The notes beneath the pieces are model-generated. The model was not told where the DNA came from. It did not search any database and saw nothing but the letters and a program-made list of their open reading frames with translations. The position numbers were made by a program, and so were the translations under genes. This document shows, piece by piece, positions 8,162 to 23,535 of a stretch of 64,000 bases of DNA (positions are counted from its first letter, which is position 1; each line of letters begins with the position of its first letter). This DNA comes from Candidatus Nanopelagicales bacterium (GTDB taxonomy: Bacteria > Actinomycetota > Actinomycetes > S36-B12 > CAIYMF01), in contig JAFIHG010000044.1 of assembly GCA_017848795.1 (NCBI GenBank), forward strand, positions 92,046 to 156,045, written 5' to 3'.

Positions 8162-8215
8162 GGTCGAGCGTGCTCGAGACCATGATCACTGACGTGGTCT
8201 CGACGACGCTCGATC
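8162..8215. repeat. Dispersed palindromic element (GGTCGAG family)
   Basis: A hairpin of 21-nt arms, left arm at 8162-8182 and right arm at 8195-8215, with a 12-nt loop and only a few mismatches. The arms resemble those at 23091-23111 and 23124-23144, so this is a dispersed family. It sits between the 3' ends of the convergent gnd and mshC genes and may also act as a transcription terminator, although no T-run follows. Confidence 0.75.
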
Positions 8216-19375: not shown

Positions 19376-19933
19376 TCAGGGCAGCGCGCCGACGTGGGCG
19401 AGAGCGAGCCGGACCAGGCGGTCCTGGCCGCCGGTCATCTCCGCCGCGACCGCGTCGCTGGCTGCTTCCTCGGGAGTCATCCAGACCAGGTCCAGCGCCG
19501 ACGCCGACGGTGAGCAGTCGCCGTCGACCGGCACCACGAAGGCGAGGCTGACGGCGTGCTGGCGCGGGTCGTGGAAGCCGCTCACGGTCGGGTCGGGGAA
19601 GTACTCCACGACGGTGAACGGTGCCGGGCAGGACGGGATGCGCGGCAGGGCGACCGGGCCGAGGTCCTTCTCGAGGTGCCGGAGCAGGGCCGCACGGATC
19701 CGCTCGCCGTACAGGACCCGACCGGAGATGCAGGCCCGGCTGATGCTGCCGTCCGGCATCGCGCGCAGCAGCAACCCCACCGACACCACCTCACCGCTCG
19801 GCGAGGTGCGCACCGGTACGGCGTCGACGTAGACGAGGGGCAGCCGTTCCCGGGCATCGTGCAGCTCCTGCGGGGACAGCCAGCCGGTCACCGTCGCGGT
19901 CGTCCCCGACCAGTCGTGGGGGAAGTCGCTCAC
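19376..19933 (-). CDS. DUF4916 / NUDIX-like protein
   Basis: A 185-residue cytosolic protein related to NUDIX hydrolases (DUF4916). LVYVDAVPVRTSPSGEVVSVGLLLR is the strand-loop-strand of the fold (residues about 33-57), SGRVLYGERIRAALLRHLEKDLG is the region of the NUDIX helix, and HAVSLAFVVPVDGD the late strand. The classic GX5EX7REUXEEXGU box is degenerate, so hydrolase activity is doubtful. The GTG at 19933 is preceded by TAGGTT at 8 nt; a longer upstream frame would overlap the divergent neighbour. Confidence 0.75.
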   Translation of the reverse strand: MSDFPHDWSGTTATVTGWLSPQELHDARERLPLVYVDAVPVRTSPSGEVVSVGLLLRAMPDGSISRACISGRVLYGERIRAALLRHLEKDLGPVALPRIPSCPAPFTVVEYFPDPTVSGFHDPRQHAVSLAFVVPVDGDCSPSASALDLVWMTPEEAASDAVAAEMTGGQDRLVRLALAHVGALP

Positions 19934-19941
19934 GAGCGCCC

Positions 19942-19947
19942 AACCTA
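19942..19947 (-). promoter_or_regulatory. Putative -10 box of the DUF4916 gene (leaderless)
   Basis: TAGGTT on the minus strand, 8 nt before the GTG start, in the divergent spacer to the small membrane protein gene. Confidence 0.4.
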
Positions 19948-20008
19948 ACCGTCGCGGGCGTGCCGGCCGGGTTTCGACACGGTCGGCAGCCCGGGGCATG
20001 CTGGAGAC

Positions 20009-20314
20009 ATGGCCGACGACGACATCGAACGACTGCTGCGCGAGGTTGAGGCGACCACGTCCGGTGCACCGGCGCCGCAGGGGCGTGAGGTGAGTCGGCG
20101 CCAGCAGGACGCGGTCGCACGCCGCTCCGGTGAGGAGCACGGCGGACGGTTCGCCGCGGCGGTGCGCGCCGGTCTGATCGGCGGCGCGATCACCGGTGTC
20201 ATCGTCTTCGTGATCTTCATGCTGACGCCGTTCGTGGGTGCCTGGGGTCCGGGGGTCGGTGCTTTCGTCGGCGGCTTCCTGAACGGCTTCTACTTCAAGT
20301 ACCGGGGTCGTTGA
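20009..20314 (+). CDS. Small two-helix membrane protein
   Basis: A 101-residue protein. The N-terminal 50 residues are charged and soluble (MADDDIERLLREVEATTSG...). Residues about 52-72 (AGLIGGAITGVIVFVIFML) and 78-95 (WGPGVGAFVGGFLNGFYF) form hydrophobic, Gly-rich segments. I do not recognise the family. GGAG lies 4-5 nt before the ATG. The stop is followed within 10 nt by the nine-unit hairpin array. Confidence 0.65.
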   Translation: MADDDIERLLREVEATTSGAPAPQGREVSRRQQDAVARRSGEEHGGRFAAAVRAGLIGGAITGVIVFVIFMLTPFVGAWGPGVGAFVGGFLNGFYFKYRGR

Positions 20315-20319
20315 GGCGC

Positions 20320-20840
20320 GTGGCGGGCGTACGTGGGGTATAGCCGCCGCTCACCCGCCATCCGCCCAGCAGCTCACCGGTGGCGGGCGTACGCACGGTA
20401 TAGCCCCCGCTCACCCGCCACTCGCGCGTCTGCTCGCCGGTGGCGGGCGTACGTGGGGTATAGCCGCCGCTCACCCGCCACTGGCGCGGCCGGTCCCGGT
20501 GGCGGGCGTACGCGCGGTAAAGCCCCCGCTCACCCGCCATCCGCCCAGCAGCTCACCGGTGGCGGGCGTACGCGCGGTATAGCCCCCGCTCACCCGCCAC
20601 TGGCGCGGCCGGTCCCGGTGGCGGGCGTACGCGCGGTATAGCCCCCGCTCACCCGCCACTCGCCCGGCCGCTCACCGGTGGCGGGCGTACGCGGGGTATA
20701 GCCCTCGCTCACCCGCCACTGTTGCCGCCGGTTACCGGTGGCGGGCGTACGCGCGGTATAGCCCCCGCTCACCCGCCACTGTTGCCCGCCGGTCACCGGT
20801 GGCGGGCGTACGCGCGGTATAGCCCCCGCTCACCCGCCAC
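20320..20840. repeat. Nine tandem ~60-bp units, each with an inverted repeat
   Basis: The units start at 20320, 20380, 20440, 20499, 20559, 20618, 20678, 20738 and 20799 (59-61 bp period). Each has a ~42-nt conserved body beginning GTGGCGGGCGTACG and ending CCCGCCAC, with a core of GGTATAGCC type; the ends pair as a hairpin. 17-20 nt variable linkers lie between bodies. Linkers 1 and 4 are identical, and so are linkers 3 and 5, so multi-unit blocks have duplicated. The array lies between the 3' ends of two convergent genes. No known family is recognised; the short linkers and tandem growth argue against CRISPR. Confidence 0.95.
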
Positions 20841-20851
20841 TGTTGCCCGAC

Positions 20852-21493
20852 TCAACGGGAGCCGAGGTTCCAGCCGAGCAGCGCCGGGGTGCTGCGCTCG
20901 TAGCCGAGGACGGCGACGCGCCCGGCGTCCAGTACCAGGTGCCTGCCGGCGGCCGGAGGCAAGCCCAGCCAACGGGCGGCGAGGACGCGCAGCAGGTGCG
21001 AGTGCGCCACCAGCACGACATCGCCCCCCTCCCGGGTGACGTCGCGGCACCGCGACACGATCGGGTCGACCCTCGCCGCGACCTGTTCGAGGCTCTCCCC
21101 AGGTCCGCGGTACGCGTCCGGCGGAGGTTCGACGTCCGGGGTGCCCTGCAGCCGGTCGTCCCACACGTCCCAGCCCGGGTCGCCGGTGAGCTCACGGACG
21201 CGCCGGGTCGAGAGGCCCTCGACGTTGCCGTAGTGCCGTTCTTCCAGCGCGCGATCCGGCGCGGCGTCGAGCCCGGCCAGCTCGGCGGTACGCCAGGCGC
21301 GTTGCAGCGGGCTCGCCAGGCACAACGCCACTCGGGCCGGGAGCAACGCCCCGGCCTGCGCAGCCCGGGTCTCCCCCGCGGCGGTCAGCGGGACGTCGGT
21401 CAGCCCCGTGTGCCGCCCGGTCCGGCTCCACTCGGTCTCGCCGTGGCGCAGCAGCACCACCTGCCCCGTCGCCCGAGCCGCACCGCCTGCCAC
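20852..21493 (-). CDS. Histidine phosphatase family protein
   Basis: A 213-residue phosphoglycerate mutase-like phosphatase. The catalytic motif is VVLLRHGETEWSRTGRHTG at residues 12-30, with the second arginine in SPLQRAWRTAELAG, the acid in EERHYGNVEG and the second His in VLVAHSHLLRVLAARW. The substrate is not predictable (phosphosugar or phosphoprotein). The GTG start at 21493 lies only 20 nt from the divergent PLP decarboxylase start, so the two share a promoter region. Its 3' end abuts the hairpin array. Confidence 0.9.
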   Translation of the reverse strand: MAGGAARATGQVVLLRHGETEWSRTGRHTGLTDVPLTAAGETRAAQAGALLPARVALCLASPLQRAWRTAELAGLDAAPDRALEERHYGNVEGLSTRRVRELTGDPGWDVWDDRLQGTPDVEPPPDAYRGPGESLEQVAARVDPIVSRCRDVTREGGDVVLVAHSHLLRVLAARWLGLPPAAGRHLVLDAGRVAVLGYERSTPALLGWNLGSR

Positions 21494-22934: not shown

Positions 22935-23086
22935 CCGGTGGTTGAGCGCAGTCGAGTCACTTTGAGCCTGGTGGCGCGCCGGTCGGCGCGTAAAGACCGG
23001 GCGAGCACTCGGTGGTCGAGCGCAGTCGAGTCACGTTGCGCCTGGTGGCGCGCGCCCGTCGACGCATGAAAGACCGGGCGAGTACT
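22935..23086. repeat. Two direct ~76-bp repeats (unit A)
   Basis: Two near-identical tandem copies at about 22935-23010 and 23011-23086, each starting CGGTGGTYGAGCGCAGTCGAG, including GCCTGGTGGCGCGC and ending in GACCGGGCGAGYACT. A third, truncated copy begins at 23087. They contain the same GGTCGAGCGCAGTCGAG half-palindrome as other elements of the family. Confidence 0.8.
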
Positions 23087-23090
23087 CGGT

Positions 23091-23144
23091 GGTCGAGCGC
23101 AGTCGAGACCACGTCGGTGCTCTTGGTCTCGACTACGCTCGACC
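23091..23144. repeat. Palindromic element, 21-bp arms (GGTCGAG family)
   Basis: Arms at 23091-23111 and 23124-23144 match at 20 of 21 positions, with a 12-nt loop. This is the best-preserved copy of the family also seen at 8162-8215. Confidence 0.8.
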
Positions 23145-23500
23145 GACGGCTCGTTGCGTCAGCTCTTTCGGAGCAGCACCCCGGGCCCTTCGGGCCGCCC
23201 TGGACGGCGGAGAAACTGGCCGCGGTCGCGGGCACCCACGGTACGGCCCCGCCATTTTCGACTCAGACCACGCCGGTGATCATGGTCTCGACTACGCTCG
23301 ACCGACGGATGGTTGCGTCAGCTCTTTCGGAGCAGACCACGTTGGTGCTCATGGTCTCGACTACGCTCGACCGACGGATGGTTGCGTCAGCTCTTTCGAA
23401 GCAGCACCCCGGGCCCTTCGGGCCGCCCTGGACGGTGGAAAATCCGGCTGCGGTCGCGGCCACCCAACGTACGGCCCGGCCGTTTTCGACTCGGACCACG
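23124..23500. repeat. Three direct copies of unit B (one internally deleted)
   Basis: Copies start at 23124, 23283 and 23352 with TGGTCTCGACTACGCTCGACC followed by GTTGCGTCAGCTCTTTCG. Copies 1 and 3 run about 150 bp and include CCCGGGCCCTTCGGGCCG and an AT-rich end CGTTTTCGACTCRGACCACG. Copy 2 is 69 bp and lacks about 90 internal bases. A degenerate half (TCTGGACTGCGCTCGACC) ends the region before the methyltransferase stop at 23536. Open frames across the area are by-products of the repeats. Confidence 0.8.
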
Positions 23501-23535
23501 TGGCGAGCGCTCTGGACTGCGCTCGACCGGCCGGA

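Follow-up and report, generated by a model that had tools for sequence, protein, structure and literature searches.

The DNA analysed here, hereafter the window, is a 64,000-nt stretch from a Candidatus Nanopelagicales bacterium (Actinomycetota; contig JAFIHG010000044.1, positions 92,046 to 156,045), and its subject is an array of nine palindromic units, 40–42 bp long and spaced 59–61 bp apart, which takes up the intergenic space of a convergent gene pair (window 20320–20840). A sequence-only reading of the same stretch had placed the array at the joint of two 3′ ends, and this setting was confirmed: the array begins 5 nt past the stop codon of the plus-strand gene and finishes 11 nt short of the minus-strand gene. 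The features of the locus, with matches to a 42-mer of the unit and to a covariance model (R1), are the following.

20009..20314, + strand: left flanking gene, 101 aa, Pfam search without match
20320..20361, + strand: unit 1, ends in CCCGCCAT; R1 model match (G000:C18:112366-112405)
20380..20421, + strand: unit 2, 42-mer and R1 model match
20440..20481, + strand: unit 3, 42-mer and R1 model match
20499..20540, + strand: unit 4, GGTAAAGCC variant, ends in CAT (the CCCGCCAT end, as in unit 1)
20559..20600, + strand: unit 5, consensus unit
20618..20659, + strand: unit 6, consensus unit
20678..20719, + strand: unit 7, 42-mer and R1 model match
20738..20779, + strand: unit 8, consensus unit
20799..20840, + strand: unit 9, consensus unit; its 3′ flank, ctgttgcccg, is the start of the last linkers again
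20852..21493, − strand: right flanking gene, histidine phosphatase superfamily (His_Phos, PF00300)

Successive units start 60, 60, 59, 60, 59, 60, 60 and 61 bp apart. Tandem Repeats Finder also reported the array, with a score of 746 and a period of 60, and the 42-mer, allowing up to three mismatches, matched eight of the nine units and nothing in 100 dinucleotide shuffles, so that the array is real and far above chance. Linkers 1 and 4 are identical, as are linkers 3 and 5, and the blockwise duplication proposed earlier therefore stands; the linkers measure 17–19 nt between 42-mers, rather than the 17–20 nt originally given. The ends and core ascribed to the units need small corrections, namely the CCCGCCAT ends of units 1 and 4 and the GGTAAAGCC of unit 4.

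The unit and its conserved letters

The unit measures 40 bp. Its left half-site, TGGCGGGYGTACG, and its right half-site, CGCTSACCCGCCA, are 13 bp each and inverted relative to one another, and they enclose a 14-bp middle with TATA at its centre. Over 89 distinct units from the genome, the left side conserves TGGCGGG-N-GTACG, the centre TAT and the right side CGCT-S-ACCCGCC, the variable positions are 8, 14, 16, 23–27 and 32, and the outer 7-bp stem is almost invariant. The units fold with z values of about −2 to −6. The earlier notion of one conserved hairpin per unit is correct for this outer stem, but not for the inner one: in the main subfamily, covariation of the inner stem pairs was no higher than in shuffles, and a conserved inner RNA hairpin was therefore rejected. 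A small covariation excess in another test was due largely to subfamily B (L028, L030), whose palindromes are near-perfect. A second subfamily, found at C5, C16, C18:67.9k, C28 and C48:44.8k, has TGGCGGGTGTGG-type ends and is nearer to a perfect palindrome; its pairs of units also keep the 60-bp pitch.

Positions 10/31 (T·T) and 11/30 (A·C) are highly conserved and unpaired. Since some of the conserved positions are unable to pair, it is likely that the unit would be recognised as DNA, and the conservation of sequence beyond pairing alone suggests recognition by a predicted protein.

Copies across the genome and in relatives

The genome scanned comprises 3.45 Mb in 57 contigs. A whole-genome pattern search for the right half of the unit gave 96 matches, which a scan of the loci concerned grouped into arrays, and to which the R1 model contributed extra small sites. 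In total, the palindrome family numbers over 100 units at about 18 sites, a count that is a lower bound because the R1 search scored 150 candidates only. The sites are distributed as follows.

C44: arrays at 60.4k (12 units), 76.5k (7 units) and 83.5k (12 units)
C44, further: arrays at 88.8k and 89.5k (17 units together) and 96.7k (10 units)
C22: arrays at 0.05k (13 units), 8.6k (6 units) and 23.8k (8–9 units)
C18: array at 112.3k (the window array, 9 units)
C39: array at 22.4k (4 units)
C48: array at 66.4k (3 units)
Paired units: C16, C20, C28 and C18:67.9k
Single units: C5, C11 and C48:44.8k

The right end of C44 breaks off inside a perfect-palindrome unit whose sole other occurrence is at the left end of C22. 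Because of this common unit, C44 and C22 are very probably adjacent contigs, in which case eight arrays would lie within about 62 kb. Around the same unit, C22:1-71 is the exact reverse complement of C22:72-142 (L024:1-142; the C44 end is the L023 end), an inverted duplication that is probably an assembly fold-back. The orientation of the arrays is mixed inside the 62-kb cluster. The genes near it encode a Clp ATPase, DisA, a RadA-like ATPase, phosphoenolpyruvate (PEP) carboxylase, an Mrp antiporter and CheB/R/W, i.e. the surroundings are ordinary chromosomal genes and do not form a mobile element. Over the 343 kb scanned for them, half-sites occur solely within units or truncated units.

By automatic gene calls, nine of the 18 sites lie in convergent gaps (10 of 18 if the C44/C22 joint is counted), while convergent pairs make up 16.5% of all gene pairs (P ~0.001 for the enrichment). 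Three sites lie in divergent gaps, and others in co-directional gaps. The earlier conclusion that this is not a promoter array is apt for the convergent gap of the window, but there are family arrays in divergent gaps as well.

The same distribution bears on the suggestion, also made from the sequence-only reading, that the arrays are terminators. As clustered bidirectional terminators, the units would each form a GC-rich hairpin whichever of the two genes is transcribed, and the repeated hairpins would halt RNA polymerase from both sides; hairpin clusters, which like the present arrays are stem-loops between convergent genes, have been proposed to act as terminators (PMC8355165). The folding of the units agrees with this, and so does their position: at convergent pairs they are mostly no more than 40 nt from the stop codons, and in one case a tRNA-Pro gene has its 3′ end 10 nt from the end of an array. 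However, no T-tract or terminator-like site was found in window 19900–21300, so that an intrinsic terminator in the usual sense (GC-rich hairpin followed by a T-tract) was rejected. In addition, the inner stem is not maintained, and neither 9–15 copies nor a fixed 60-bp pitch is necessary for termination; unlike intrinsic terminators, the arrays belong to a conserved sequence family and are present in divergent and co-directional gaps too, which means that termination cannot be their sole role. We therefore consider terminators an improbable explanation.

The full unit had no match in 98 relatives. A relaxed 32-bp core, GGGYSWRCG-N4-STATAS-N4-CGYWSRCCC, was present in 48 copies in G008, which belongs to another genus of the same family, and was absent from the other family genomes examined (15 of 16 lack it). 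The G008 copies are dispersed singles, near-perfect palindromes of about 56 bp, and 7 of the 12 inspected lie between convergent genes. Homologues of the left flanking gene occupy an equivalent convergent setting in G008 and G009; in G008, the stop codons of the orthologous convergent pair are 11 bp apart, and there is no array. In G013, a shorter core (AGCG-N4-STATAS-N4-CGCT) occurs three times, at least once inside a longer palindrome with a different outer stem. To judge from these comparisons, the family is shared, patchy and lineage-amplified in the manner of repetitive extragenic palindromic (REP)-like elements, and it is almost confined to this lineage.

In GTDB r220, where the scan may have skipped entries for the genome that the window comes from or for very close ones, a symmetric half-site pattern gave 25 matches, all single and in unrelated genomes, with no family core and no 60-bp array. 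A scan of IMG/VR gave one chance-like single match, while PLSDB and INPHARED gave no match to the unit, so that it does not qualify as a plasmid or phage iteron. Of the class-wide matches to the 32-bp core, most appear to be a single recurring chance sequence that is probably coding (repeated ...CTGTACGTGGCGCTGACCC). Three genomes of another actinobacterial family (G429, G486 and G502; L111-L116) contain dispersed palindromes of the form GGGTGAGAGTGRYC...GRYCACTCTCACCC, whose outer stem is similar to GAGTYGGGT and some of which have a CTATAG centre; they resemble the window family, and the resemblance may be due to convergence.

Spacing, linkers and array growth

The pitch of the arrays is rigid throughout the genome: 89 of 90 intervals between neighbouring units fall at 59–61 bp (60 bp in 70 cases, 59 in 12 and 61 in seven), the remaining one being 65 bp, and the half-sites follow one another along the arrays at alternating distances of about 27 and 33 bp. 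The linkers, of about 20 bp, are alike within arrays (identity 0.63) and unrelated between them (0.40, compared with 0.34 for shuffled linkers). In every comparable array except L031, the unit bodies are better kept than the linkers.

Linker copies also continue into the flanks of the arrays, as seen on the 5′ side of L134 (z = 5.3), at L022:16503 (z = 5.7) and on both sides of L025, and on the 3′ sides of L031 (z = 3.0) and of the window array (z = 2.0). The clearest flank repeat is at C28, where there are two identical units and the linker repeats a 15-nt stretch of the 5′ flank. Such repeats fit duplication in place of the palindrome together with neighbouring DNA. The common 60-bp sum in spite of unrelated linkers may mean either that the duplication was measured or that the pitch was selected. 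Linker-length variation was 0.41, against 0.84–2.4 expected at assumed neutral indel rates; as it rests on these rates, the comparison is only suggestive of linker length being more constrained than neutral.

Duplicated linker blocks and the likeness of linkers within arrays are also what would be expected of ordinary minisatellite-type variable number tandem repeats, functionless and grown by slippage from a chance palindrome. This explanation is already largely contradicted, and we regard it as very improbable: the identical type of 40-bp body and the same 60-bp pitch recur at many loci with unrelated linkers, and the body is better kept than the linker. To save it, one would need a common origin of the arrays and homogenisation of the bodies by gene conversion alone.

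Relation to known systems and possible role

The family has the broad features of REP-like extragenic palindromes, i.e. many copies, extragenic location, a bias towards gene 3′ ends and patchy occurrence in relatives. REPs of the GTAG/CGTC superfamilies (PMC3733652) are likewise extragenic and lineage-specific palindromes of 20–40 bp, partly clustered and enriched 3′ of genes and in convergent gaps, but they carry a tag at the foot of the stem and have a RAYT gene, and the window family has neither. No GTAG or CGTC tetranucleotide was found at the stem foot, where the adjacent bases differ between arrays, and with both tag and RAYT absent, membership of these superfamilies was rejected. The survey of these superfamilies covers other phyla, without mention of Actinobacteria (PMC3733652). 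The REP arrays of Pseudomonas fluorescens SBW25 also are regular tandem palindromic repeats at several chromosomal places (PMC3116915); in that strain, arrays either alternate GI with GIII REPs, at 112 and 72 bp, or consist of GI units at even distances, the largest arrays are made of near-identical copies, and orientation differs between the chromosome halves (PMC3116915). In the window family, by contrast, each array has linkers unrelated to those of the others, all arrays share the 60-bp pitch, and both orientations occur within 62 kb.

With CRISPR arrays the family shares partly palindromic repeats, short spacers of near-constant length and a period of about 60 bp. It differs in that its linkers recur, its repeats vary and many of its arrays lie between housekeeping genes; for these reasons, and because none of the scanned genes beside the arrays, to which the cas search was confined, is a cas gene, a CRISPR array was rejected. 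In Rfam, the only match in the window was a tRNA, and there was none at the arrays searched. No literature specific to actinobacterial REP-like arrays was found, and the earlier remark that no described element has this sequence holds in so far as the sources searched gave no recognised name. This is a real REP-like palindrome family, previously unnamed in those sources, with an unusual rigid array architecture.

On balance, we lean towards reading the window array as the local amplified form of this lineage-restricted family, with amplification in place, recognition as DNA and a barrier role. A single palindrome would have landed at a gene end and then been duplicated in place with about 20 bp of neighbouring DNA, which would give each array its own linker and all arrays a common pitch. 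The palindrome would most likely be recognised as DNA, either as a duplex or as an extruded hairpin, by a putative palindrome-binding protein; at convergent genes, the row of stems could form a two-sided barrier to read-through transcription. The element would be of slight use there or simply be tolerated, and would not be essential. This reading draws directly on the unit anatomy, the pitch, the array-specific linkers, the distribution, convergent preference, clustering and patchiness of the family, the G008 singles and the array-free orthologous site; from these we infer amplification in place, protein recognition and a role as a barrier at gene ends (or in chromosome organisation).

Several points weigh against it. 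The duplicated flank is not cleanly 20 bp at all loci (about 11 at L028 and about 7 at L135), the pitch could stem from selection by a bound protein and not from the way in which the arrays grow, and the length-constraint test hinges on assumed indel rates. Moreover, RAYT/Y1_Tnp (PF01797) was found in none of 17 family genomes, while 5 of 14 control genomes were positive, which leaves the palindrome without a known cognate enzyme.

The protein-binding array suggested in the sequence-only reading is a possibility favoured by the fixed pitch and by the letters that are conserved without pairing. In one version, the arrays would organise the chromosome in a partition-like manner, with a dedicated putative protein on each unit, neighbours cooperating at the 60-bp pitch and the 62-kb cluster acting as a domain. 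The rigidity of the pitch among unrelated linkers, the conservation of unpaired letters, the concentration of eight arrays in about 62 kb of a 3.4-Mb genome and the restriction of half-sites to units all agree with this, and the fixed spacing together with the clustering may hint at a dedicated protein. On the other hand, the absence of the 32-bp core from 15 of 16 other family genomes means that this is not an essential conserved system, G008 has singles and not arrays, the mixed orientation in the cluster means that this is not a polar signal, and the dnaA/parAB-like region sits on a separate contig, C19. We therefore hold chromosome organisation to be a rather doubtful alternative.

Polar signals such as KOPS were rejected on account of the mixed orientation, and an origin-located array because the dnaA/parAB-like order is on C19 and not on the array contigs. 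The unit is also unrelated in sequence to parS (TGTTTCACGTGAAACA, near the origin). As regards parS itself, no exact copy is present in the genome, and the sole near match, with two mismatches, is on C19 (L132:19007-19018 and 19563-19574), where gene order and lengths resemble dnaA-yidC-parAB, the names being inferred from order and length.

A bolder extension of the reading as an amplified REP-like family, which we put forward tentatively as a rather unlikely possibility, is a new actinobacterial system in which the 40-bp palindrome would be bound or cut by a putative protein that measures off 20 bp on its outer side. This would fix the same 60-bp pitch everywhere and give rise to arrays at independent loci, the 62-kb cluster serving as a domain of the chromosome. 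Catalogues of REP-like palindromes have so far drawn mainly on groups other than Actinobacteria, and the best-known families go together with RAYT transposases; the present family is RAYT-free, and its TATA-centred core is common to another genus with different outer stems. With one 60-bp pitch and unrelated linkers, it represents a natural experiment on the amplification and spacing of palindromic repeats, and the unit array is a defined bait for a new palindrome-binding protein.

Two other features of the genome were observed. In a second interspersed repeat family, which occurs in many places, two inverted copies of GGTCTCGACTACGCTCGACC flank a spacer of the ATGATCAC type.

Window: 8162-8215 and 22940-23528
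L022: 5148-5430 and 12847-12970
L029: 997-1285
L137: 176-230
L140: 12257-12690

In addition, L031:3071-3138 has an Rfam match to the mycobacterial ASdes small RNA (RF01781, 79.9 bits).
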